IMG/VR virus record: IMGVR_UViG_3300037882_001997
Location: 1-41,218 of that record
DNA length: 41,218 bases
Source of the DNA: a virus
Reading direction: 5' to 3' (one strand)
The translations under genes and the position numbers were made by a program. Positions within the stretch are counted from its first letter, which is position 1. Each line of letters starts with the position of its first letter. This document shows, in pieces, positions 11,141 through 39,734 of this stretch. The notes under the pieces were generated by a model. It had not been told where the DNA came from. It did no database searches and saw only the letters and a program-made list of their open reading frames with translations.

Positions 11141-12469
11141 ATGGCTACGGAATCAGGCTACTCAAACCAAAAGAAACTAGGTCAATCCCAGTTTAAGACT
11201 ATTCATAACGTAGGAAGTGACCAGTTCGCTGCTCCAGTTGTACAAAAAACACTATTTGACATTACTCCAACCCCCCAAACTATTATATCCGTAACGGATA
11301 TAATCGGAGAAAATGGTCAAATTTCAGCATGGCAAATAGAAATTACTGCTCACGGTGCAATTAAAGGCAACGTACTTCAAATGTCTACTGGCACATTGAA
11401 GTCATGGGAATATGAAATCGTATCTATTGTAGATGCCGACAACTTTTTAATCCTTCCAATTTCAGATACTAAGCCAATTGCTGCAGAAACAGCTAAAGTT
11501 ATGGCATGGATTACTACCCGTTCTAATGAAGACGGAAGTGCTATTGTAGTGGTAGATCCTGCTCCAATAGCTATCCTGGTTGAAGGTGTGGCAACAGAAA
11601 TTCAAGATAGTGCAACTCCCTCTAACGTACAGGCAATGCCAGTTAAAATCATGGCAGTTGATGGAACCAACATCAACATAACTGCTGGCGACATCAATAT
11701 ACAGACAACAGACATGGGAGCTACTTTCGATTCTATGAGAATCGGAGATGGTTCAGGTAACTACATCGGCGTAACAGTAAATGATGAGGCGAAAGTTAGC
11801 GATGCAGATGCTTTAGCAGAGCTTCAGGCATTGTCGTCTGTAGATTTCGCCACACAAACAACCCTGGCGGCTCTTTTGACTGAGCTCCAATTAAAAGCGG
11901 ATTTGACAGAAACTCAGCCCGTTTCTTTGGCTTCTATTCCACTCGCAACAGGAGCGGCAACAGAGGCTAAACAAGATACTGGTAACACGTCTCTAGGGTC
12001 AATTGATACAAAGCTTTCTTCTCAAGCTACCGCAGCAAAACAAGACGATATTATTAATGAGTTAGATGCTATTCAAGCATCGGTTGACTCTATAGATGTA
12101 AAACTACCTGCTACTCTTGGCACAAAAACAGCAGCCAACTCTTTGGCGGTAACTTTAGCCTCAGATCAAGTAGCTATCCCTAATGCGGTCATCGCAGGAA
12201 CAGTCACTAATGCTCAGGCTACCGTTGGAACCTCTGCTGTAAGAGCTACCGTTTCCGGTTCAGCGCCAAACGCAGCAAGAAAACGTCTTAGCATTAAACC
12301 ATCTAAGAATAATACAGGATCAATCTATTACGGATCTTCATCTGTGACTACTGCTAACGGATTAGAAATCATCGGCCCAGACAGATTAGACTTTACTTTC
12401 GATGCTTCAGATTACTATTTAATATCGGACACAGCCGCACAGGTTGTTGAGATTGTAGAGGTTATTTAA
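11141..12469 (+). CDS. Fibre-like structural protein, 442 aa
   Basis: GGAGGAG six bases before the ATG marks strong translation. The N-terminal 125 residues look beta-rich. A middle stretch (about 225-310) has the alternating pattern seen in phage fibres, with TEAKQDTGNTSLGSIDTKL and a related AAKQDDIINELDAIQASVDSI repeat that should form a trimeric coiled coil. The C-terminal 80 residues (RKRLSIKPSKNNTGSIYYG and on) resemble a common compact beta-domain of head and tail fibres. The likely role is a head fibre or tail accessory attached after DNA filling. No catalytic motif is visible. Confidence 0.75.
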   Translation: MATESGYSNQKKLGQSQFKTIHNVGSDQFAAPVVQKTLFDITPTPQTIISVTDIIGENGQISAWQIEITAHGAIKGNVLQMSTGTLKSWEYEIVSIVDADNFLILPISDTKPIAAETAKVMAWITTRSNEDGSAIVVVDPAPIAILVEGVATEIQDSATPSNVQAMPVKIMAVDGTNINITAGDINIQTTDMGATFDSMRIGDGSGNYIGVTVNDEAKVSDADALAELQALSSVDFATQTTLAALLTELQLKADLTETQPVSLASIPLATGAATEAKQDTGNTSLGSIDTKLSSQATAAKQDDIINELDAIQASVDSIDVKLPATLGTKTAANSLAVTLASDQVAIPNAVIAGTVTNAQATVGTSAVRATVSGSAPNAARKRLSIKPSKNNTGSIYYGSSSVTTANGLEIIGPDRLDFTFDASDYYLISDTAAQVVEIVEVI

Positions 12470-14253
12470 TGAAAACTTTAAGTCTATTATTGACATTAAT
12501 TCTTAGCTTTAATTGTGTTGCCGTTGCTCCTTATGGGATCAAGGGACAAAATCAATCGCAAACACTTTATTCTAACGTACATCAAACACCGAACAACCAA
12601 GTGACAAATCTTGGCGGAATTAACGCCTTGATTGAAACTGGCAACAAGAACATTCTAGAAAATCCAGGCTTTGAGCACTCTTTATTCTCGACGGGGTGGA
12701 TAGAATCAGGAACAGGAACGGATACTGCTGAACTAAGCGTAGTAATCGACGGTAAAAAATCATTCAAGACGGTTACCTCTGCTCAGACTATTAACATTTC
12801 TCAATCATCTACCCTTTATGCTGCTCAGTTTGCTGACGGTATCCAGGGTTTGGCTTCAATTAGAATCAAAACCAATCATACTGGGGCTATGTCTGTTTGC
12901 TCGATTAATGCAGGAGTAGTTTCAACTACAAACTGCGTAACAGTGATTGCCGACAATAAGTGGGGATTGTATAAAGTTCCATTTGTTTTAGGTGCAACAT
13001 CTAACGGTATCTCTATCGTCGGAGCAAGCGGAACAGGTACAACTTATTTTGACGATGCTTTTGTAGGCGCTCAAGATATAACTCAGAACGCTCAGTCTAT
13101 AAGTACCCAATATGGTAGATTGTCGCTTTCTGGAACTACGGCATCTGGAGCTAAACTACTTGGAGCGTTAACAGAGTCTTCAGGTAGCGGTTTATTTTCG
13201 TACAACTCCGCAACTGGGGATTACACGGCCCTAGTAACTGCCAATTTTACAATAGCTGGTTCAATGAGAGCCACTACTACCACAAGAGCAGATCCTACAA
13301 TTGTAGTAAACGGAAATCAGGTAGGAAGGGATACTACAGACACAGCCGTGGCTACAGCATGGGCAGGAGCTAGTTTTTCAGGAATAATAACAGCGGGCCA
13401 GGTGTTTTATATAATCAACCAAGGAACCGGAGCATCGGATAACGCTTACTCATCTGTCAGCGCAGTATCTCTTGCAAATGCTTCAATTTACTCTTCTCAA
13501 TGTGGAGCTAATTGTGTTGATACATTTAGTGCGAAAGTTTCAAGCTCGGGAGTAATCAGCGATGAAAACATAGACTTCTTATCTTCTTGTAGCTTTGGAA
13601 GTACTGGACTAGGGTCATGTACCTTTACGTCAGGAATTTTCACCGTAGCTCCAAACTGTGCCGTAACATATTCGGGAGCAGGTACAGGAGCCAATGCTCG
13701 AGTAGCAAATATTAGAACTCAAAGTGCATCGTCTATTGAATACCTAACAGAAGCGGCTTCTTTAACTAACGCATCTATTAACATTATTTGCCAAAAACAA
13801 GGCGCAGATTTTACCAACACCAGAGCAATAACCGGAAGCTTTAAAGAGGTAATGACGGTACCAGGAATTACTAAGCCTAAAACTTGCTTCTACGGATTTG
13901 GAGGAGCTTCAGCGACATTATCCGCACCTACTGAATGTTCTACAGGGACGTGTGTAGAAACTCTTGATACTTGTGGAACAGGGACACCGCCATCGTTTTC
14001 ATCTACAGGTATTTATACTGGTTTAACTTTTGCTTCTGGGACTTTTGCTAATTCGTCATTTGTTAAGTGTGACACCTATGCAGCTTCTACATCTAACGGA
14101 TCCGGGAGACAGGGAAGCTTGTACTTCGCTACTGGTCAGCAAACATGGGCAGCAAACGCTTCCGGAGGATACGTATCAAACGTCCTATCATACAACGGCG
14201 GAACATTAGCAAACGCTTACTTTATGGTTGAGTGTAAAGGACAAGTCCCATGA
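12469..14253 (+). CDS. Exported cysteine-rich adhesin-like protein, 594 aa, with Sec-type leader
   Basis: The ATG overlaps the previous stop (TAATG). Residues 1-20 form a classic Sec leader: a lysine, then LSLLLTLILSF, with a plausible CVA/V cleavage. After it comes a carbohydrate-binding-like domain opening with ENPGFEHSLFSTGWIESG (about 64-200, CBM4/9-like by eye). A C1q-like beta domain follows (about 235-330). The last 260 residues hold many paired cysteines (NCVDTF, SSCSFGS, GSCTF, ICQKQG, TCFYGFGG, ECSTGTC), suggesting disulfides. An export leader is unexpected in a virion protein assembled in the cytoplasm. It may be a secreted phage protein or a fibre with a host-like N-terminus. Confidence 0.72.
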   Translation: MKTLSLLLTLILSFNCVAVAPYGIKGQNQSQTLYSNVHQTPNNQVTNLGGINALIETGNKNILENPGFEHSLFSTGWIESGTGTDTAELSVVIDGKKSFKTVTSAQTINISQSSTLYAAQFADGIQGLASIRIKTNHTGAMSVCSINAGVVSTTNCVTVIADNKWGLYKVPFVLGATSNGISIVGASGTGTTYFDDAFVGAQDITQNAQSISTQYGRLSLSGTTASGAKLLGALTESSGSGLFSYNSATGDYTALVTANFTIAGSMRATTTTRADPTIVVNGNQVGRDTTDTAVATAWAGASFSGIITAGQVFYIINQGTGASDNAYSSVSAVSLANASIYSSQCGANCVDTFSAKVSSSGVISDENIDFLSSCSFGSTGLGSCTFTSGIFTVAPNCAVTYSGAGTGANARVANIRTQSASSIEYLTEAASLTNASINIICQKQGADFTNTRAITGSFKEVMTVPGITKPKTCFYGFGGASATLSAPTECSTGTCVETLDTCGTGTPPSFSSTGIYTGLTFASGTFANSSFVKCDTYAASTSNGSGRQGSLYFATGQQTWAANASGGYVSNVLSYNGGTLANAYFMVECKGQVP

Positions 14254-19924: not shown

Positions 19925-21232
19925 ATGGCTAATTTAGATTTTTTAAAATTTGATCCTAATAAAGACACTAGGAAGCCATTCAGCATGACTGACTATGAAG
20001 CTATTCCTCCAGAGCTTCGTAATGATTATGTTAAGACAACTTCTATTCCCGCCAAGAACCAAGTCAGCAATGAAATGGTTATTGAAGCCCCTGTGGCACA
20101 AAAGCAAGTAGCCATTGCTACTCCAGTAGAAAAGCCAAGAATTGAAGAGATGAAACAAATATTCTCTCCTCAACCTGAGGTCCCAGTAGAGCAGCCGCAG
20201 TTTCAACCTACTTCTGAGTTAGTAGACCCGGAGGAAGTTAAACTGAAAGCACAGGCTATGATGCCTCAGTCAGGCCCAGCGAATTGGCTTCCTGCTTTAG
20301 CTCCATTATTAGCTGAAGCCTTCATGGGAGGAAATGGTAAAAGTGCTGGAGAATCTCTAGGTATTTCTGGAAACTATTTAGTAGACCAGGAAAAAGATAA
20401 AATTAAACGATCACAATCTCTTGAAGATAAATTAATGGAAATTCAAAAAGCCAGGGCTATTGCATCTGCCAAAGCTCAAGGCAAAAACTCCCTTAAAACA
20501 CTTGAAGTAGATGTTAACGGAAAACCTATCATTACTGCAGTTCCAGACGCAGTAGGAAAGCAAGCATGGAAAGCTCCAACTAGGGAATCCACCGCCTTAA
20601 CCTTTGACCAAAGATTAGAACTAGAAAAACAAAAAGCTAAACTCAAAAAAGAAATGGATGGGTTTAAGCAAAAAGCTAAAGACAGCGAAAAGAAAATAGA
20701 TCTTGAGAAATACTATGGCTCAGAAAGATCTAAAGATCCGTTTACTCGAGACACTAAAAAAGTAGCCGATGCCTATAACAAATTGTCTCAATTAGACCCA
20801 GAGTCTAAAGACCCTATTCAAGACATTGCTGTTATATTTGACTTTATGAAGTCCCTAGATCCAGGTTCCGTAGTAAGAGAATCAGAGCAATCATTAGTTA
20901 TGGGAGCCAAGTCTGTGGGGGATTTTGTAGAAAATCTTTCCGATATGCTTAAGAAAAATAGAAAGTTAACTCCCGATCAAGTTAGAGGAATTCAAAGATT
21001 CTCTGCTCTAAACTACCAGAGAAGGCTTCAATCTCAAGAAACGCAGGTAGATGCAAGATACAAGAAAATAGCTGAAAAATATGGCTTAGATCCTCAAGTA
21101 GTTTTGGAAGATTTGTCTATGGGCACCCCAATGTTATGGACAGATAAGAAAACAGGAAGAACAAAAATACTTTCAATACCAAAAGGGCAAGAAGCTGAAG
21201 CTGAAGCTGCTGGCGCACAGAGGGTAAAATAA
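19925..21232 (+). CDS. Ejection/internal virion protein, 435 aa
   Basis: The N-terminal 90 residues are Pro- and Glu-rich. A short hydrophobic segment (NWLPALAPLLAEAFMGG, about 120-135) is followed by long charged coiled coil (about 150-270). A conserved-looking helical block (DIAVIFDFMKSLDPGSVVRE, about 299-318) is a recurring signature of podoviral internal proteins with a DPGSVVRE motif. The C-terminus is Ala/Glu-rich. Together with its neighbours at 18553 and 21232 it likely forms the trans-envelope channel for DNA entry. Confidence 0.72.
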   Translation: MANLDFLKFDPNKDTRKPFSMTDYEAIPPELRNDYVKTTSIPAKNQVSNEMVIEAPVAQKQVAIATPVEKPRIEEMKQIFSPQPEVPVEQPQFQPTSELVDPEEVKLKAQAMMPQSGPANWLPALAPLLAEAFMGGNGKSAGESLGISGNYLVDQEKDKIKRSQSLEDKLMEIQKARAIASAKAQGKNSLKTLEVDVNGKPIITAVPDAVGKQAWKAPTRESTALTFDQRLELEKQKAKLKKEMDGFKQKAKDSEKKIDLEKYYGSERSKDPFTRDTKKVADAYNKLSQLDPESKDPIQDIAVIFDFMKSLDPGSVVRESEQSLVMGAKSVGDFVENLSDMLKKNRKLTPDQVRGIQRFSALNYQRRLQSQETQVDARYKKIAEKYGLDPQVVLEDLSMGTPMLWTDKKTGRTKILSIPKGQEAEAEAAGAQRVK

Positions 21233-23097
21233 TGGCTAAATTAACTGCAGCAGACCTAGATAAGATGGCAGGATTTGATTCGTATGAAGCTCCAGAACCT
21301 AGGGATAAACCTAAAGTAGTTGCGGAATTCGATAATCAAAAGAAAGCTGCTGAGTTTGTTAAGGATATGCTCAAAGTAGTTGGTCAAGGAGCTTCCTTGG
21401 GATTTGCTGATGAGGGGATAGCTGCAGCAAAAACAGGCTCTATCAGTTCTCCAGAATACATCAATGAAAGAAATATTATTAGAAATGAAATGCAGAAATC
21501 CAGAGAAAATGTTGGAACTATTTCCCCCGTTCTAGAAGCTGCAGGATCTATGATTCCTACAGCAGGAGCAGGAGCTATTTCTTCTAGTGTTAAGGCAGCT
21601 CCAGTTCTAGCAGAAATGGTGTCTGCGGGAATTCAAGGAGCGGGAGAATCGGAAGACATAACAGGAATTCCTGGAGAAATGGGAACTTCTATGGCGCTTC
21701 AAGGAGCTGCTGAAGTTGCTGGCAAAGGACTTAAAAAATTAATTTCAGAGGATTCTACAAAAATACTATCTAAGTCAATGGGAGCAAAAGCTTCTCAGGT
21801 GAATTTACCTGAAGGTAAATCAATTAAAGAATCTATCAAGAGATTAAATGACCGTGGATTCTTTAAACAAGGTGAAGTTGTAGTTGATACAACAAACCAA
21901 GCCTATAAAAGAGCAGGGAAAACATTAGGTGACTTTTTTAAACCACAGAGTTTAGACAGCCTGTATGAAAGATCCATAAAATCCTTGTCTACTTTGAAAG
22001 AAGCAAATAATGCTTTATTAGAAAATAAGTACATTAAAAGATCTCATTTAATAGAGGATTTGAACCAAGCCGTAGCTGATATGACTTACGATCCAACAGG
22101 ATTTAACGTATCCGCTAGAGAAAATCTTGCGGAAGAAGTTAAAAATATTATTTTGGAAGATTTAGTAGCCAAAGGTAATTGGCTGCCTCAACAGAATTTT
22201 AAAGCAAAAGCTATTGAAGAAGCTAAGAAATCACTAGATGCGCACATAGGAACTCCAGCATTTAAGAAAAGAGCTGAGGACTTAGGAATAAATCCAGAAG
22301 CTATGATGTTGTTCAGAAAAAAATTAGATTCTCTTGTAGATCAGGTGGGAGGGAAAGCTTACAAATTAAATAACGATATGATGTCGGATTTAATAAATGT
22401 AAAACAAACCATAGAAAATAAATTAAACCGTTCTTACGTAGACACTGGTTCAGGTCTTATAGATCAAAGAAGTTGGATGACTAAGTTATTGGAAGGGATT
22501 AGTCCTACTCCAGTAGACATTGCTAGATCTGACCTGGCAACAGCAGCAGAAAATCCTTTAATGCAAGGTGCTGGAAAGCTACTTAAGAGAACCCCGGTAG
22601 AAGCTCTAACAGAAGATAAAGGTGGGTACCCTACTCAAGAGCCAGCTAACGGATTTAATGGAGTAAAACCAGCATTTCCTTTTGGGGTACCTCCTCAAGA
22701 GCAAATTAAAAAACTACCAGGATCTTCTATGATTACTCCAAGAGAAATAATTAACTTCCGTATTCCTAGAACTACAGACGGTATTTTAGCTAACAAAGAA
22801 AGAGTAATAGCTAAGTTAGTTCAGAATGGAGTAGACGGAGAAATGATAGATACCATAGCCCAAGCTCTTAATGATGACCTTGAAGCAGTTTCTAATATAG
22901 CTCCATTGATTATCCAGCAATTTCCTACTATATTTGAAAGATCAAAATATCAAGTTTTTGATGGTGTTATAGCTGGTCCAGATAGAGCTAAAGCAGCAGA
23001 TGCTATATCAAAAAGAGCTGATATGGATTCCATTGCAAGAGCTAAGGCAATTGATGGGATTAATAAATACGGTAAACTTCCTCAGGAGCTAGCGTAA
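21232..23097 (+). CDS. Ejection/internal virion protein, 621 aa
   Basis: It starts by TAATG overlap with AGAGG before it. The N-terminal block (GQGASLGFADEGIAAAKTGS, then YINERNIIRNEMQKSRENVG) is common to large phage ejection proteins and tail-injected enzymes. A hydrophobic Ala/Gly region (about 100-165) and a long helical middle follow. No lytic transglycosylase or protease motif is visible, so the wall-degrading function, if any, must lie elsewhere. It would enter the cell with DNA. Confidence 0.7.
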   Translation: MAKLTAADLDKMAGFDSYEAPEPRDKPKVVAEFDNQKKAAEFVKDMLKVVGQGASLGFADEGIAAAKTGSISSPEYINERNIIRNEMQKSRENVGTISPVLEAAGSMIPTAGAGAISSSVKAAPVLAEMVSAGIQGAGESEDITGIPGEMGTSMALQGAAEVAGKGLKKLISEDSTKILSKSMGAKASQVNLPEGKSIKESIKRLNDRGFFKQGEVVVDTTNQAYKRAGKTLGDFFKPQSLDSLYERSIKSLSTLKEANNALLENKYIKRSHLIEDLNQAVADMTYDPTGFNVSARENLAEEVKNIILEDLVAKGNWLPQQNFKAKAIEEAKKSLDAHIGTPAFKKRAEDLGINPEAMMLFRKKLDSLVDQVGGKAYKLNNDMMSDLINVKQTIENKLNRSYVDTGSGLIDQRSWMTKLLEGISPTPVDIARSDLATAAENPLMQGAGKLLKRTPVEALTEDKGGYPTQEPANGFNGVKPAFPFGVPPQEQIKKLPGSSMITPREIINFRIPRTTDGILANKERVIAKLVQNGVDGEMIDTIAQALNDDLEAVSNIAPLIIQQFPTIFERSKYQVFDGVIAGPDRAKAADAISKRADMDSIARAKAIDGINKYGKLPQELA

Positions 23098-23375
23098 TGG
23101 CACAAGTATGTACAGTAATACAAGCAGATCCTCAGAGTTTAGCGGATGCTCTAACTGCTTTAAATTCTGAAGTCCTTATAATCGAGAAGACTTCTTCAGC
23201 AGGTAAATTCTTGGTAATTCACCAATCCCCATCCACTTCACAGACTTTTGAAGTAATTATGGGGGATCCAGCCAAGCTAGCTGATAGCCTACAGACTATC
23301 ATTACTGGTGGAGCTACGGTCAATATCGTATGTCCTACCTTTTCAGCTTCTCACTACGTTATAGGATATGTATGA
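23097..23375 (+). CDS. Small protein made of two repeat modules, 92 aa
   Basis: Two about 40-residue modules occupy the whole protein: VIQADPQSLADALTALN followed by FLVIH, and VIMGDPAKLADSLQTII followed by YVIGY. The same module appears once in each of the next two genes. The pattern (a strand, a GDP-x-x-LA helix, then two strands ending in an aromatic-Val-Ile) suggests a small alpha/beta fold. The start overlaps the previous stop and AGGAG precedes it. I do not recognise the family. Position just before the tail fibre suggests a virion accessory or fibre-attachment part. Confidence 0.75.
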   Translation: MAQVCTVIQADPQSLADALTALNSEVLIIEKTSSAGKFLVIHQSPSTSQTFEVIMGDPAKLADSLQTIITGGATVNIVCPTFSASHYVIGYV

Positions 23376-23509
23376 CATCAACATATATACAGGGAGATCC
23401 TGAGACATTAGCGGCTGCATTGCAGGACATTATAGATCTTGGAAATACTATTTACGTTTTAATTAAAACAAAAGCAAATGCAGATTTTCTAGTTATTTAC
23501 GGGGTTTAA
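23372..23509 (+). CDS. Single repeat-module protein, 45 aa
   Basis: This short gene begins in ATGA with the previous stop and ends immediately before the next ATG at 23510, so the three genes form a tight series. The product is one module only (YIQGDPETLAAALQDIIDLG, then FLVIYGV). Its agreement with its neighbours in spacing of GDP, LA-x-AL and the final aromatic strand is good evidence that it is translated. Confidence 0.72.
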   Translation: MTSTYIQGDPETLAAALQDIIDLGNTIYVLIKTKANADFLVIYGV

Positions 23510-23809
23510 ATGAACTTCATAACCGTATTAGGATCGCCTGAAACGGTATGTGCGTTCATAGAGCAATTGATACTTAGTGGCGCAATAATTTGGGATGTAA
23601 AAAAATCCTTTTTTAACGCTACTTATTTAATAGGATATGAGGAAACAGTAGTAAACGATTGTTTCTTAGCTTTAGAGGATGGAAGTCTTTTATTGCTTGA
23701 AAATGGATCTAAGATAGTATTGGAAGTATGTCCTGTTTTCTATATGCTACTAGAGGACGGAAGCTTCCTTTTATTAGAAGATGGGTCTAAGATAGAATTA
23801 GAGGATTAA
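23510..23809 (+). CDS. Repeat-module protein with LEDGS tail, 99 aa
   Basis: Residues about 3-44 are a divergent fourth copy of the module (VLGSPETVCAFIEQLILSG, then YLIGYEE). The C-terminal half is two copies of an 18-residue beta-repeat: LEDGSLLLLENGSKIVLE and LEDGSFLLLEDGSKIELE. Such LLLEDGS strings are known from phage tail and fibre proteins. The combination links the module family to virion structures, probably the fibre base. ATG starts directly after the previous stop. Confidence 0.75.
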   Translation: MNFITVLGSPETVCAFIEQLILSGAIIWDVKKSFFNATYLIGYEETVVNDCFLALEDGSLLLLENGSKIVLEVCPVFYMLLEDGSFLLLEDGSKIELED

Positions 23810-23812
23810 TAA

Positions 23813-25885
23813 ATGAGCGACCTTAAGATAAGTCAATTACCTACAAAAGCTACCCCAATAGCTGCAGATATAGTCCCTATTGTAGATTCTGTAGATACAA
23901 CAAATAAAAAAATAACTATAGGTACTCTTCCCATATCAACAGCTACTCAGACAGCATTGAATGCCAAAGTAACAGGTAACACAGCCATTACAGGTGCGAC
24001 AAAAACTAAAATAACTTACGATTCCAAGGGATTAGTAACTTCAGGGGCAGACGCTACTACAGCGGATATTACAGACAGTACAGATAAGAGATACGTTACC
24101 GATGCTAATTTGGTTGTTATCGGGAATACTTCAGGCACAAATACTGGGGACCAAGATTTATCTGCTCTGGCATTAAAAGCTACAACAATATCGACGACTG
24201 CCCCCCTTGCGGGTGGTGGCGATTTATCTGCAAACAGAACACTATCTATTCCTGCGGCTACAACCTCAGCAGACGGTTATTTAACCTCTACGGATTGGAA
24301 CACGTTCAACGGAAAACAAAACGCATTAGGCTTTACACCAGAAAACTCAGCAAATAAAACGACAAACTTCACAGGAAACACTGGAAGCAATACCTTATTT
24401 CCAACGGTAAAAGCTATCTACGATGCACTTGTAGGATACCTTGCGAGTTATCAGCCTATCCTAGGATTTAACCCTGCTAGTGAGAGTCTTTCGAACTTAG
24501 ACGGTGTAGCAATTAATGCAGATTTACTACCAGACACTGACAGTAACTACAACATAGGTCAGAGTGGTCAGAACTGGAATTCAATAGCTGCAGCAAAGAT
24601 TGGGTATGACGGTGCAACAGCTATAGATTTAGACTCTAGGAAAATGTTCGATACTAATGAAAAAGAATCGATGAACTTTGAAGGGAGAATTCTTAGTGAC
24701 TCATCCAATATAAGCTCCGTTGATTATCAAAATAGACAATTGCTTGATACCGTATCTAATGCTTCTGTTCAATACGGAAACAGAGCACTACTCGATAGTG
24801 CTGGCGTTGAGTCTGTAAACTGGGAGTCTCGGTATCTTGCCGATGATTCAGAGATTCAAGCTTTAGATTGGATTGATAGAAGATTATGGTCTAATGATGG
24901 TTCAACCGTAACGCTAGACTGGTCCAGTGCTGATGGACTCATCACTATAACTCAGCCCATTGATGACAACTCCACGTTTGTAGCAACGACTGCTTACGTA
25001 GACACCCAGCCAAAAACTAAAATTGAAACATTCACTACTAGTGGAACATGGACTAAAGATCCTAGAGCTAAGAGGGTTACAGTGGTTCTCAGGGGTGGTT
25101 CTGGTGGTGGTGGTGGTGGTAGACGTGGTGCAAGTGCGACAAACCGTTTTGGCGGTGGTTCTGGTGTAGTAAGCTCTATTGCTTGGATGTCATTTAACCC
25201 AAGTGACTTGGGAGCAACAGAAAACTATGTCGTAGGAGCTGGTGGAACCGCAGGAGCAGCAGCAACGGTCAACGATACAAACGGCGGGAATGGCGGTGCA
25301 GGTGGAGAGAGTAATTTCGGTACCGTAGTTAGAATAAGAGTCCCGGCTTCTGCTGGTGGAAGTGGCGGTACAGGAGCCGCAGGAGCAGCAGGGGTAGCAC
25401 AGGCTGTTACAATCAGTCCCTTCTCAACCGTTCAAGTAGCAGGCAGTACAGGCACCTCAGCAATAGGAAGTGGCGGAGGATCAAGAACAGACATAGTAGC
25501 TTCTACCTCTAGTGGTGGTGGAGCAGGTTCAGCAGGTGCAAACGGAAGTAGTGCCGGTGGTGCTGGTGGACAATTTACGGCTAACTCTTTCTTAGGAACC
25601 AAGAATGGTGGAGCAGGTGGAGCGGCAGGTGGTTCAACTCCTGGAGCTGGTTCTGTCGATACGGGAACTAAATTTATGGGGATGCCTATCGGCACTGGTG
25701 CTGGTGGTGGAGGAAGTAACGGTAACGGAAGCGGTGCCGGTAGTAATGGTGGCAACGGATTTACGAGCGGAGGTGTTCACCTCGGTGGAGCAGGAGGCGG
25801 TGGTGGAGCGAGCACGAACGGGTTTAACTCTGGTGCTGGTGGAATCGGTTCAAACGGTGTGATCGTCGTTATAACGGAGTACTAA
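23813..25885 (+). CDS. Long tail fibre with 16-residue repeats and glycine-rich tip
   Basis: The 690-aa protein opens with MSDLKISQLPTKATPIAADI, a very common start for phage fibre proteins. A fibre-type repeat region with TGDQDLSAL and FNGKQNALGFTPE motifs follows. Residues 270-365 are six exact 16-residue repeats. From about residue 400, after TFTTSGTWTKDPRAKRVTV, a glycine-rich domain extends to the end, as in phage adhesins that bind the host surface. No autoproteolytic chaperone domain is seen. The small protein that follows probably assists folding or attachment. GAGG lies before the start. Confidence 0.88.
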   Translation: MSDLKISQLPTKATPIAADIVPIVDSVDTTNKKITIGTLPISTATQTALNAKVTGNTAITGATKTKITYDSKGLVTSGADATTADITDSTDKRYVTDANLVVIGNTSGTNTGDQDLSALALKATTISTTAPLAGGGDLSANRTLSIPAATTSADGYLTSTDWNTFNGKQNALGFTPENSANKTTNFTGNTGSNTLFPTVKAIYDALVGYLASYQPILGFNPASESLSNLDGVAINADLLPDTDSNYNIGQSGQNWNSIAAAKIGYDGATAIDLDSRKMFDTNEKESMNFEGRILSDSSNISSVDYQNRQLLDTVSNASVQYGNRALLDSAGVESVNWESRYLADDSEIQALDWIDRRLWSNDGSTVTLDWSSADGLITITQPIDDNSTFVATTAYVDTQPKTKIETFTTSGTWTKDPRAKRVTVVLRGGSGGGGGGRRGASATNRFGGGSGVVSSIAWMSFNPSDLGATENYVVGAGGTAGAAATVNDTNGGNGGAGGESNFGTVVRIRVPASAGGSGGTGAAGAAGVAQAVTISPFSTVQVAGSTGTSAIGSGGGSRTDIVASTSSGGGAGSAGANGSSAGGAGGQFTANSFLGTKNGGAGGAAGGSTPGAGSVDTGTKFMGMPIGTGAGGGGSNGNGSGAGSNGGNGFTSGGVHLGGAGGGGGASTNGFNSGAGGIGSNGVIVVITEY
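24620..24907 (+). repeat. Six tandem 16-codon repeats inside the tail fibre
   Basis: Six consecutive units of exactly 16 residues (270-365 of the fibre) share Arg at unit position 7, a Leu or Met at position 9 and mostly Asp at position 11, with Ser-hydrophobic at the start. Examples are SVDYQNRQLLDTVSNA and SVQYGNRALLDSAGVE. The exact register suggests a beta-solenoid shaft. DNA copies have diverged, so the array is old and maintained by selection. Confidence 0.8.
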
Positions 25886-25886
25886 C

Positions 25887-26288
25887 ATGAGATACTTGAT
25901 CTTAGAAAATAACATTGTTGTAAATGCTATAAACGCCACTCAAGAGTTTATTGATGGCGGTAACTTAGTAGCAATTCAGAGCGACACAGAAGGGGATATT
26001 GGGGACACCTACGAGAACGGTGTTTTCATCAAGCCAGAGCCAGTAAAAGTTTTTGAGCCAGTAAAGCCAGCCCATATGCGAAGGGCATTAAGACAAGCTG
26101 GGATACTTAACACTATTAACTCAATACTCTCCCAGGACGGTTATGAGAACGCTAGGGATGCATTTGAGTATACTTTAATATTCATGCGTGATGACGTTAT
26201 GGTTAATCAAGTTGGAACAGCTTTAGGGTTAACAGAATCTCAAATTGACGATATTTTTATTAACGGTGCAAATTTACAAAATGCATAA
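25887..26288 (+). CDS. Fibre-associated small protein, possible assembly factor or fibre tip
   Basis: The protein has 133 aa. It starts with MRYLILENNIVVNAINATQE, which is typical of small proteins encoded directly after phage fibres and thought to help fibre assembly or attachment. The N-terminal 45 residues are beta-rich; a proline linker (KPEPVKVFEPVKPAHM) leads to a helical domain. GGAG precedes the start, one base after the fibre stop. The function is inferred from position. Confidence 0.68.
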   Translation: MRYLILENNIVVNAINATQEFIDGGNLVAIQSDTEGDIGDTYENGVFIKPEPVKVFEPVKPAHMRRALRQAGILNTINSILSQDGYENARDAFEYTLIFMRDDVMVNQVGTALGLTESQIDDIFINGANLQNA

Positions 26289-26330: not shown

Positions 26331-26597
26331 ATGTCGTTAGGTGTTGAAAAAATTGAAAGTGCTGCTGAAGCCCTTAAGAAACTTGTTATCGCTGGAAAGA
26401 AAATTTCTGCTGACAAGAAAATTGGAATGGATGATTTGGGAGTTTTAGTAGCTCTTGTTTCTGATGCTTCTTCTATCGTTGAAGCTTTTAAAGATCTTGG
26501 CGAAGCTTGGTCTGAAGCTAAGGATATTGACGTTGCTGAAGCAATTCAATTGATCCAGGCGATTCACGCTAAAATTCAAGAAATCGAAAAGGCTTAA
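26331..26597 (+). CDS. Small, probably highly expressed helical protein, 88 aa
   Basis: GGAGG four bases before the ATG, a perfect -10 box and narrow codon choice (GCT, GAA, AAG, CTT) point to strong expression, like the capsid gene. The protein is almost all helix: KKLVIAGKKISADKKIGMDD, then a hydrophobic VLVALVSDASSIVEAF and an acidic-amphipathic KDIDVAEAIQLIQ end. No membrane span or catalytic motif. Similar helical small proteins occur in marine and freshwater phage genomes without function. It may be a minor virion protein or a regulator of host machinery. Confidence 0.72.
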   Translation: MSLGVEKIESAAEALKKLVIAGKKISADKKIGMDDLGVLVALVSDASSIVEAFKDLGEAWSEAKDIDVAEAIQLIQAIHAKIQEIEKA

Positions 26598-27079
26598 GAA
26601 AAATTAGGGATATAAAAACTTCCTAAAATTTTAGAGGCAGCAATATCTCGGGATTTTGCTGCTTCTTCCTCTGATGAAAAATAACCTACATAGTGTCTTA
26701 TTCCATATCTTGTCACATACGCATTCCAGCCTCTACCATCACTGTGTCTACTGACCCCAACAAACCTAGAGGAACTGTTCTTTTTAGCTTTTCTGCTTAA
26801 ATGGTTTTCTTTAGAAGAACAATTCCGCAAATTTATTTTTCTATTGTCTAGGCTGTCACCATTTATATGATCTACAGACTCTGATATAGAAGACAAAATC
26901 TCTCTATGAAATAATATGGTGCGTCCTTTATAGGATCTTCTAAGATATGGCTTATTGCTATTACGTATATTTGGAACATGCCATTTAAAAGAAAGATATA
27001 GGTCGTAGCTTTCAGGACAAAACACTAGCATATTTCCTTTTTTGTCTAATATAATAATAGTTATCAAGGAACCTCCCAT
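26594..27079 (-). CDS. HNH homing endonuclease with AP2-like domain, antisense in the late arm
   Basis: At 161 aa, the protein has an N-terminal beta segment (ITIIILDKKGNMLVF) typical of these enzymes, then HNH with His58, Asp70-His71 (VDHINGDSLDNRKINLRN) and a C-terminal AP2-like DNA-binding domain (FVGVSRHSDGRGWNAYV, YVGYFSSEEEAAK, about 105-150). Such genes cut a site and copy themselves. It lies opposite to all neighbours and fits exactly between the 88-aa gene stop and the next start, so it is a recent insertion. The ATG at 27079 overlaps the ATG of the next rightward gene on the other strand. Confidence 0.85.
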   Translation of the reverse strand: MGGSLITIIILDKKGNMLVFCPESYDLYLSFKWHVPNIRNSNKPYLRRSYKGRTILFHREILSSISESVDHINGDSLDNRKINLRNCSSKENHLSRKAKKNSSSRFVGVSRHSDGRGWNAYVTRYGIRHYVGYFSSEEEAAKSRDIAASKILGSFYIPNFS

Positions 27080-27302
27080 GGGATTAGAGCTTATTTTAGG
27101 TATATTAAAAGAAGGATTAAAACTAGCAAATTCTAAAGAGGCTACAAAATATTTAGATCAGGTGGTTAAAATTGAAAAAAGTTATTATGAAGAATTATCT
27201 AAGTCTGAAGCTGATCGTTCTCAGTTGTATCTTGATGAGCGGCTGCTCGAACTTGAAACAATCGCCTCAAATTTCATCAAATTTGCTAATAAAAAGCAAT
27301 GA
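27078..27302 (+). CDS. Hypothetical coiled-coil protein, 74 aa
   Basis: The ATG at 27078 has AAGGA eight bases before it; an upstream extension lies over the HNH promoter area and is rejected. The protein is an amphipathic helix throughout (LILGILKEGLKLANS, then YYEELSKSEADRSQLYLDE). The N-terminus is mildly hydrophobic but too weak for a clear membrane span. A lipoprotein gene begins inside it in another frame, recalling i-spanin/o-spanin nesting. Without a clear membrane anchor the spanin reading is tentative. Confidence 0.65.
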   Translation: MGLELILGILKEGLKLANSKEATKYLDQVVKIEKSYYEELSKSEADRSQLYLDERLLELETIASNFIKFANKKQ

Positions 27303-27537
27303 CGGAGTTTCATTGGTTCATTTTGCTCCTGATATTCCTTTCCCTGTGGATAAGGCGTTCTTCCCAATTGAGCCAGATCTATCCGGCGTATATTATTCGT
27401 GGAGAGAATGCGCCAAGAGATTTATATTGTGTGTCAAGTGGGAACAGAAAAAAATATCTTTTAAGTTCAACGATCCAGAAGCCATGAAGTTCTTCAAAGC
27501 TAATGACTTCGGATTTATTAAGAGAAAATCACCTTGA
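27187..27537 (+). CDS. Nested lipoprotein, possible outer-membrane spanin
   Basis: The first 20 residues form a lipoprotein leader: MKNYLSLKLIVLSCILMSGC with lipobox LMSGC. The gene starts inside the 74-aa gene in a different frame and extends 235 bases beyond it. Rz1-like spanins have this architecture. The mature part (about 97 aa) has only two more Cys (about residues 75 and 82) and no coiled coil or proline-rich region, so an exclusion or cell-surface lipoprotein is equally possible. A TTG start at 27172, behind an AGGTGG, would add five residues. Confidence 0.72.
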   Translation: MKNYLSLKLIVLSCILMSGCSNLKQSPQISSNLLIKSNDGVSLVHFAPDIPFPVDKAFFPIEPDLSGVYYSWRECAKRFILCVKWEQKKISFKFNDPEAMKFFKANDFGFIKRKSP

Positions 27538-33158: not shown

Positions 33159-33737
33159 CTACTCGGAGACACCAGACTTATTTACATCAGGTATTATATT
33201 TAATCTAGCAAAAATTCCAAAATATTTAATTGCAGCCTCATTATAGGCTCTTGCGGCTTGTTCCTTATTATTAAATTGCCCCAGGTAAACAGATTTCTTA
33301 TTTACGTGAATGTAGGCTTTAAAAAGAAGTTGATTAGGGTCCGCTTGGTAAACCCCTTTGTATTCTCTGCCTTCATGTATTTTTCTATTCTGACCATTCT
33401 GTATATTAGTGGCTATACGTAGATTGGAAACCAGATTGTTTAACCCATTTCCATCGGAGTGATCTACAATATATTTCCCCAACTCCAAGCCTAGAACTAC
33501 CCTATGCATCTTAATAGAGGAATTTTTATGTTTAGCATAGGCATAGAAAACGTGCTTAGGTTTTACAACACCCCATCTAAAACATTTTACCAAGTGGTAT
33601 TTATCTTTGTCTACATAGGCAAAATGAATTCCGTACTTAGGAGAATTTAAAATTATTTTTACAATATCTCCCTCCACAACAATTTCGTTCTCTGTCACAT
33701 AGTAATTTTTATTTTTACTACCTTTAGGTCTTCCCAT
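33159..33737 (-). CDS. HNH homing endonuclease with AT-hook-like N-terminus and AP2-like domain
   Basis: The 192-aa product has MGRPKGSKNK (AT-hook-like) at the start, an HNH domain with His78, Asp92-His93 and Asn101 (VDHSDGNGLNNLVSNLRIAT), and an AP2-like domain (YKGVYQADPNQLLFKAYI, YLGQFNNKEQAARAY, about 125-172). It lies between polymerase and SSB and starts on the polymerase stop (TAATG), a tidy insertion between genes. Its first ten residues almost equal those of the 63-aa protein at 3845. Confidence 0.88.
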   Translation of the reverse strand: MGRPKGSKNKNYYVTENEIVVEGDIVKIILNSPKYGIHFAYVDKDKYHLVKCFRWGVVKPKHVFYAYAKHKNSSIKMHRVVLGLELGKYIVDHSDGNGLNNLVSNLRIATNIQNGQNRKIHEGREYKGVYQADPNQLLFKAYIHVNKKSVYLGQFNNKEQAARAYNEAAIKYFGIFARLNIIPDVNKSGVSE

Positions 33738-38489: not shown

Positions 38490-38597
38490 TTATCCTGATA
38501 ACTGTTCTTTTTCGCTCTTAATCTTGATACACACACTTCCGCCCCAGCAATTTTCGCGGTCGCAATCGGGGCATGTGTCAGAATTACTTGGTGTCAT
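38490..38597 (-). CDS. Tiny zinc-ribbon-like protein, 35 aa
   Basis: The product has CPDC at residues 9-12 followed by Cys17 and Cys23 (CDRENCWGGSVC), consistent with a single zinc knuckle. It starts within the end of the HNH gene (14-base overlap) and stops 12 bases before the 112-aa gene's ATG. The ribosome site is weak, so confidence is moderate. A similar CxxC small protein exists at 1439. Confidence 0.45.
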   Translation of the reverse strand: MTPSNSDTCPDCDRENCWGGSVCIKIKSEKEQLSG

Positions 38598-39309
38598 AAT
38601 ATGATTCTTTATGAATTTCCAAGAATCTTCTATCAAACGCTGCTTCTGCTTCTTTTTCTGTTAAAAAAGAACCTAAATACTCGTCTTTTCCATTATTTTT
38701 AATCCTAGAATACCAAATCCTCCCACCGCTGGTGTTGTGTCGGTACACCTTTTTGAGTTTTCGTTTAAACAGGGCGTGAACTACGTTTTCACGGCATGAA
38801 ACATATTCAAGGTTTTTAATGTCGTTGTTCAACTTATTAGAATCAATGTGATTAACAAAAAGATTGCTTTCCCCAATAAAAGACGCGGCAACTAGTCGAT
38901 GCACATACTCGCGCCTATAGGTATAATATCCGCGAATCCCTTTAGCTCCAAATGTATATCTATCCCAATCAGAGGGCTTCAGGACTGAAGCTCTATTTAC
39001 TGCGGTAACTTTTCCGCAGGTAGAAACTATTAAATTATCTATACTGGTTACGGAAATTGTTTCTGGTCTATCGGTAACACTCTGCACTGCCAAAGTCGCC
39101 TCACTAAATCCTATAACTGTTGAGTGCTTTTTTTTGTGATGCAAGCTGTTTGAGTAGGTATTGCTGCATTTTACACACTTAAACCTAAAGCCAGTCTTTG
39201 TCTTTGGCATTTCACGTGCTTTATAGCTGCCCTTGCATATGCGGCACTCCACAGTATCTCCTGGCTTAAACATTGATGATAATAGTTTGTGGGTTCTTGC
39301 GCCGCTCAT
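38584..39309 (-). CDS. HNH homing endonuclease with zinc ribbon and AP2-like tail
   Basis: At 241 aa from ATG 39309 (ATGA overlap with the SprT-like stop, GAGG before it). A treble zinc ribbon opens it (CRICKGSYKA, KCVKCSNTY, about 20-50). An HNH core follows (YVHRLVAASFIGESN, then VNHIDSNKLNNDIKNLEYVS, about 133-175) and an AP2-like end (YSRIKNNGKDEYLGSF, EKEAEAAF). It is the third enzyme of this type and lies between small early genes, probably a mobile insertion. Confidence 0.85.
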   Translation of the reverse strand: MSGARTHKLLSSMFKPGDTVECRICKGSYKAREMPKTKTGFRFKCVKCSNTYSNSLHHKKKHSTVIGFSEATLAVQSVTDRPETISVTSIDNLIVSTCGKVTAVNRASVLKPSDWDRYTFGAKGIRGYYTYRREYVHRLVAASFIGESNLFVNHIDSNKLNNDIKNLEYVSCRENVVHALFKRKLKKVYRHNTSGGRIWYSRIKNNGKDEYLGSFLTEKEAEAAFDRRFLEIHKESYYDTK

Positions 39310-39734
39310 ATCCACCTCTTAATGTTTTCACTACAAAAATACGGCACCGAGAATTTCACTTTCTCCTCGGTTTTGTAGTTGTTGGCATGGTTGTATGATG
39401 CAACGTGGCAATACTCATGCACCAAGTTTCCAACCACATCAAGCACGTCCATTGACGGAAGTTTTCTAATGTTAATGTGAATCGAAACGCCATCCGAGTA
39501 ACCAATGGCTTTGCTGTAGGCGTACCAAGGTTTGTAAGTAAAAACTTTCACAAGCGGTCTTTCTTTAAGAAGATTCAAAAAGATATCTACGCCTTTCCCT
39601 GAATTATATTTGAAGTCGTTCTTTAACCTAATCTCGTTCATCATCGGAGAGTTAACATCAAGAAGCTTTTCAGCGATCAGTATCGCTTCCGAGATTTTTG
39701 CTTGAGTGGTCATGTTCGTAAATCTTGATTTCAT
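39306..39734 (-). CDS. SprT-like HExxH zinc metallopeptidase, 142 aa
   Basis: The start is ATG 39734 with AGGA eight bases before it, rather than the ATG 12 codons upstream, which lies in the previous small gene. The zinc motif is HEYCH (about 106-110), preceded by VVGNLV and followed by NHANNYKTEEKVKFSVPYFC, where a third ligand (His or Glu) may lie. The compact helical/beta layout fits SprT-like minimal proteases. Phage homologues have unknown targets. Confidence 0.72.
   Translation of the reverse strand: MKSRFTNMTTQAKISEAILIAEKLLDVNSPMMNEIRLKNDFKYNSGKGVDIFLNLLKERPLVKVFTYKPWYAYSKAIGYSDGVSIHINIRKLPSMDVLDVVGNLVHEYCHVASYNHANNYKTEEKVKFSVPYFCSENIKRWI

Follow-up and report, generated by a model that had tools for sequence, protein, structure and literature searches.

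Three small genes beside a fibre-type gene in an uncultured phage share a predicted beta-alpha-beta-beta module

Three consecutive small genes at the end of the virion gene block in an uncultured phage carry, as judged by sequence comparison, four copies of one module of about 40-44 residues. The copies are real, homologous and old, and they represent a real, previously unnamed protein family, since related phages keep the gene series and more distant ones hold a single copy. The family would be new, with a fold of a familiar kind and a mode of evolution, tandem duplication, that is also familiar.

Results

The stretch of DNA analysed here (the window) comprises a single IMG/VR virus record, 41,218 bases long, and has a gene order like that of short-tailed phages. 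Terminase (4027) is followed by portal (5789), major head protein (9191) and tail-type proteins, then by an ejection-type block running to 23097; after the three small genes come a fibre-type gene and a lysis-type block; the labels "ejection-type" and "lysis-type" are taken from gene order, not from family matches. All three small genes lie on the plus strand. Gene 1 (23097..23375, 92 aa) holds a tandem pair, modules a (23097-23231) and b (23241-23372), gene 2 (23372..23509, 45 aa) holds module c alone (23372-23506), and gene 3 (23510..23809, 99 aa) joins module d (23510-23641) to a C-terminal LEDGS tail. The start of gene 1 overlaps the stop of the preceding gene (TAATG), with AGGAG at 23084-23088, the start of gene 2 (ATG 23372) overlaps the stop of gene 1 as ATGA, and genes 2 and 3 share a frame with a single TAA between them (TAA-ATG), an arrangement found alike in the window and in its relative G008. 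As the genes overlap or abut, coupled translation is favoured.

The upstream neighbour, also on the plus strand (21232..23097), encodes a 621-aa protein that is kept in relatives and is, from its position, probably of the ejection or internal-virion type. Downstream on the same strand (23813..25885) lies a 690-aa Gly-rich tail-fibre-like protein, which in the PHROG scan matched phrog_6202 (tail fiber) at E 0.0017 and phrog_2295 (unknown function) at E 4e-19, and whose N-terminus (MSDLKISQLPTKATP..DIVPIVD) is common to the genes that follow the series in relatives. After it comes a 133-aa protein (25887..26288, plus strand; phrog_6034, unknown function, 8e-11), possibly a fibre assembly factor.

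Several other features of the window were noted in passing. A 594-aa protein of the virion block (12469-14253, plus strand) begins with a signal-peptide/lipobox-like sequence (MKTLSLLLTLILSFNC), carries a motif of carbohydrate-binding type, ENPGFE...GW, and has no PHROG match. By eye, three minus-strand ORFs (26594-27079, 33159-33737 and 38584-39315) resemble HNH-AP2 homing endonucleases; the one at 26594 sits inside the lysis-type block, and a similar ORF is found at the corresponding place in a relative (L036:7887-8387). Two overlapping small plus-strand ORFs (27042-27302 and 27172-27537), the second with a lipoprotein-like signal (LSCILMSGC), may be a spanin pair.

An earlier note on this DNA had proposed that the three genes were built from one repeated module, and both the ORFs of 92, 45 and 99 aa and the four copies were confirmed. 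Scored against shuffled sequence, five of the six pairs of copies are significant by Gumbel p (a-b 9e-5, a-c 2e-7, b-c 6e-7, b-d 5e-6, c-d 3e-6), the pair a-d alone being non-significant at p 0.15. Between-copy identity is 36-48% for DNA and 15-38% for protein, which bears out the note's description of the copies as old and of low DNA similarity. Profile searches seeded with one copy, by which the module could have failed, instead recovered other copies in the window and in relatives: in phmmer, copy c found the a-b gene at 4e-8 and d at 0.014, and copy b found c at 0.0014 and d at 0.003, d being the weakest. The shared spacing described earlier, GDP-x-x-LA-x-AL, holds exactly in c, and the other three deviate from it (a ADPQSLADAL, b GDPAKLADSL, d GSPETVCAFI); across a 13-copy alignment the sole invariant position is the P.

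The small proteins used directly as queries gave no match at first, and relatives were reached through the major head protein, which gave 16 loci, three of them in records of ~41-42 kb (G004, G008 and G010). The four-copy window profile found 3, 4 and 4 matching places in these, respectively, with a best E of about 1e-16, and module matches seeded from the window by profile or single copy ranged from 1e-16 to 3e-4. In all three the series has the ejection-type gene on one side and, on the other, a gene whose N-terminus is of the fibre type, so that the placement beside a fibre gene that had been noted in the window extends to four diverged phages. The architectures differ in detail (92-45-99 aa in the window, 92-44-72 in G008, 92-72 in G004, 94-74 in G010). 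Copy c has a 44-aa counterpart in G008 and none in G004, gene 3 has counterparts of 72 aa in each of these two, and the 74-aa protein of G010 is only partly module-like; G004 also has two extra ORFs between the ejection-type gene and the series. Identity of the 92-aa proteins is 63-70% within the group of window, G004 and G008, and 37% between the window protein and its G010 counterpart. For the 92-aa gene, Nei-Gojobori pN/pS among the window and its two close relatives was 0.25-0.37; the third gene gave 0.43-0.57 and the 45/44-aa pair 0.63. These ratios are rough because synonymous sites are near saturation; at 0.25-0.63 overall, they indicate purifying selection on the series genes. When module proteins served as seeds for direct scans of viral and genome collections, only these same three records were matched. 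The ejection-type protein alignment likewise returned known relatives only, a scan with the 791-aa tail protein gave no match, and a head-protein scan of bacterial and archaeal genomes for a host was also without match.

More distant phages were obtained by a wider head-protein search. In G015 and G016, whose head proteins are 48-51% identical, one stand-alone module gene of 43-44 aa directly follows the ejection-type gene and precedes a gene for a small helical, possibly lysis, protein, with no fibre gene beside it. Both are weak matches: the profile gave E 4e-4 and 0.004, copy b alone gave 9e-4 and 0.01, and the overall range of 4e-4 to 0.05 is marginal. They are supported by the same exact gene position. 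On the combination of module and position after the ejection-type gene, the family includes the window, G004, G008, G010, G015 and G016. No module was seen in G019 and G021, records that may be incomplete or too diverged. One protein each in G015 and G016 has a J-domain-like N-terminus (L075:13073-13684 and L079:2178-2771, both minus strand).

The copies also preserve some record of their history. Among the window, G004 and G008, copies a share 67-76% identity; their identity is 39% with copy a of G010 and 27-41% with copies b, and position-matched copies across phages are mostly closer to each other than to their paralogues. On a tree of copies the position groups cluster more than shuffled labels do, which makes it probable that duplication preceded the split of the fibre-linked phages; no branch is strongly supported, and the tree therefore does not settle the order of the duplications. 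Since two distant phages keep one module, a single small gene was probably duplicated before the series phages diverged. The sequences thus suggest a single-gene state giving rise to the duplicated series, and this is probably the direction of change.

AlphaFold2 modelled the 92-aa protein from 11 sequences with pLDDT 94.2 and pTM 0.82, predicting a strand-helix-strand-strand (beta-alpha-beta-beta) unit twice over. Modules c and d were modelled together in a construct in which the TAA separating gene 2 from gene 3 is translated, a modelling device by which we do not claim read-through. They show the same element order as a-b at low confidence (pLDDT about 58-79; construct mean 55), and the LEDGS tail appears as short strands with pLDDT under 50.

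A profile search of the PDB gave no match, and a PDB fold search gave none below E 0.07, its top matches being ACT regions of aspartokinases. The ACT domain (beta-alpha-beta-beta-alpha-beta) was set aside at E of at least 0.076 and rmsd about 9-12. In a viral-library fold search none reached E 0.05, and the best TM to query (0.55-0.59, E 0.26-1.3) belonged to the N-termini of collagen-like fibre proteins K7PMK4, A0A7T7GU87 and Q45PZ0, which between them come from phages Rogue1, JK06 and BECP10; the c-d model likewise ranks K7PMK4 first. A 45-aa protein of Aeromonas phage 25AhydR2PP matched one module (TM 0.78, E 2.0), and because a gene of that length sits there among non-structural genes we take this as a common small fold and not as a homologue.

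The nearest known system at the level of fold is gp21 of Rogue1 (K7PMK4, Drexlerviridae), which has tandem units of beta-alpha-beta-beta type at the N-terminus of a fibre-type protein. The fold match covers 98 columns (TM 0.59, rmsd 4.1, 13% identity, Foldseek E 0.26), and profile-profile comparison gave a probability of only 3-9%, with a local score above 60 of 60 column shuffles. The two units that begin gp21 are each weakly DUF1737-like (protein match E 1.3e-4, below the Pfam cut-off; genome matches 5.9e-4 and 0.0065). DUF1737 (PF08410), the N-terminal domain of phage-borne NanS-p esterases (PMC10462455), is likewise a short domain with, through the Rogue1 fold match, apparently the same element order; its Pfam model, run with E up to 10, matched neither the window nor any of five relatives. 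In Rogue1 the domain is fused to a collagen fibre encoded before the major capsid gene, whereas the window has three free proteins. We read the modelled likeness to the tandem DUF1737-like N-terminus of Drexlerviridae as a shared fold type and do not claim homology. Collagen-like "tail fiber" genes of Drexlerviridae begin with a tandem DUF1737-like pair (L085:1565-1885 and its relatives L091-L095), and several records label the collagen-like fibre gene "DNA polymerase". These collagen-like fibres may be head fibres, because in the records with an annotated capsid they lie just before the major capsid gene.

The earlier note knew of no described family with this serial arrangement, and family searches likewise point to none. 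Pfam and PHROG scans of all module proteins gave nothing significant, a weak NapD match at E 0.06 being dropped as below threshold, and tblastn with the three window proteins and those of two relatives against 50,697 phage records gave no module match. The range covered was Pfam, PHROG, PDB and INPHARED, and none of these four gave a significant match at the sensitivities used.

In the tail of gene 3 a unit of ~21 residues occurs twice (residues 52-72 and 78-98; 23663-23725 and 23741-23806, plus strand), where the third proteins of G004 and G008 have one. Only two proteins align with the last 22 residues of this tail, both annotated as virion structural proteins, NOXIFER_141 of phage Noxifer and RPMD05_84 of Rhodobacteraceae phage LS06, each time at the extreme C-terminus and with the pattern LLxDGSxxLLEDGxxxxLE; the remainder of both proteins is without similarity to the module. 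The alignments are not significant alone (E 0.2-2), and for that reason we treat the likeness as suggestive. To that extent the description of the third gene as a module fused to LEDGS repeats of virion-protein type is upheld. Two unrelated phages thus have virion structural proteins whose very last residues form an LLEDGS-type tag (L099:2021-2572 and L098:865-3069).

Discussion

We give about even odds to the most likely reading, in which the products of the three genes are paralogues with beta-alpha-beta-beta domains and serve as small structural components of the tail, d perhaps being the one that docks the fibre. The proteins would then be present in the virion, where sheet-to-sheet contacts would hold the domains next to one another; a-b together with c would make up a small collar at the distal tail, and d would contact the fibre of the next gene via its LEDGS tail. 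That a gene with the fibre-type N-terminus directly follows the series in G004, G008 and G010 is consistent with such parts, as are the overlapping or abutting genes, the purifying selection, the confident tandem fold of a-b with its like order in c and d, the LEDGS tail and the collagen-like fibre N-termini among the fold matches. Counted against them are the module gene of G015 and G016 with no adjacent fibre, the missing copy c of G004, fold matches that all have E above 0.05, and the low model confidence of c, d and the LEDGS tail, and we know of no module homologue from a virion. The earlier suggestion of a modular fibre adaptor set fares less well, as the linkage to a fibre gene is not constant: the stand-alone module genes of the single-copy phages make fibre docking unlikely as the original role.

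By the evidence of those same phages the family is not defined by fibre linkage, which leaves room for the module proteins to be chaperones, factors that help to assemble the ejection protein or the fibre and are then lost from the particle. Very small, separately encoded proteins beside large virion proteins are often chaperones, and the module gene keeps its place beside the ejection-type gene in phages that have no fibre gene next to it. However, copy d bears a C-terminal tail otherwise seen on virion structural proteins, and several diverged copies under selection suit a multi-subunit part better, so that we regard a chaperone role as possible but unlikely. The position of the module gene directly before the small helical gene in G015 and G016 could instead mean that the module proteins open the lysis block and act in lysis or host takeover, for instance by regulating that possibly holin-related gene. 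This strikes us as improbable, as no signal peptide or membrane segment is apparent in the sequence of any copy, and in four phages the fibre gene, or genes after the fibre-type N-terminus, separate the series from the lysis block. Least expected is a receptor-binding cluster, also raised in the earlier note, with the modules as exposed domains binding host surface molecules. The series does adjoin a fibre gene and its copies diverge from each other, but receptor-binding tips usually vary fast, whereas counterparts of the module genes are conserved across phages at the pN/pS values given above. The module proteins also had no significant match to a carbohydrate-binding family, and nothing found points to receptor binding, which we consider very improbable.

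Returning to the reading as tail parts, a fuller scenario can be drawn, in which a one-domain tail protein became four specialised copies in a hetero-oligomeric collar, the beta-repeat plug of the last member docks the fibre, and relatives preserve the single-copy, partial and full stages. Taken as a whole, we think this scenario rather unlikely to hold in every part. Shared by virion proteins that are otherwise unrelated, the C-terminal LEDGS tag may serve for docking more generally. The family has gone unrecognised by Pfam and PHROGs, and stages of its duplication are still visible among relatives, which would make it a test case of how new parts arise in short-tailed phages.
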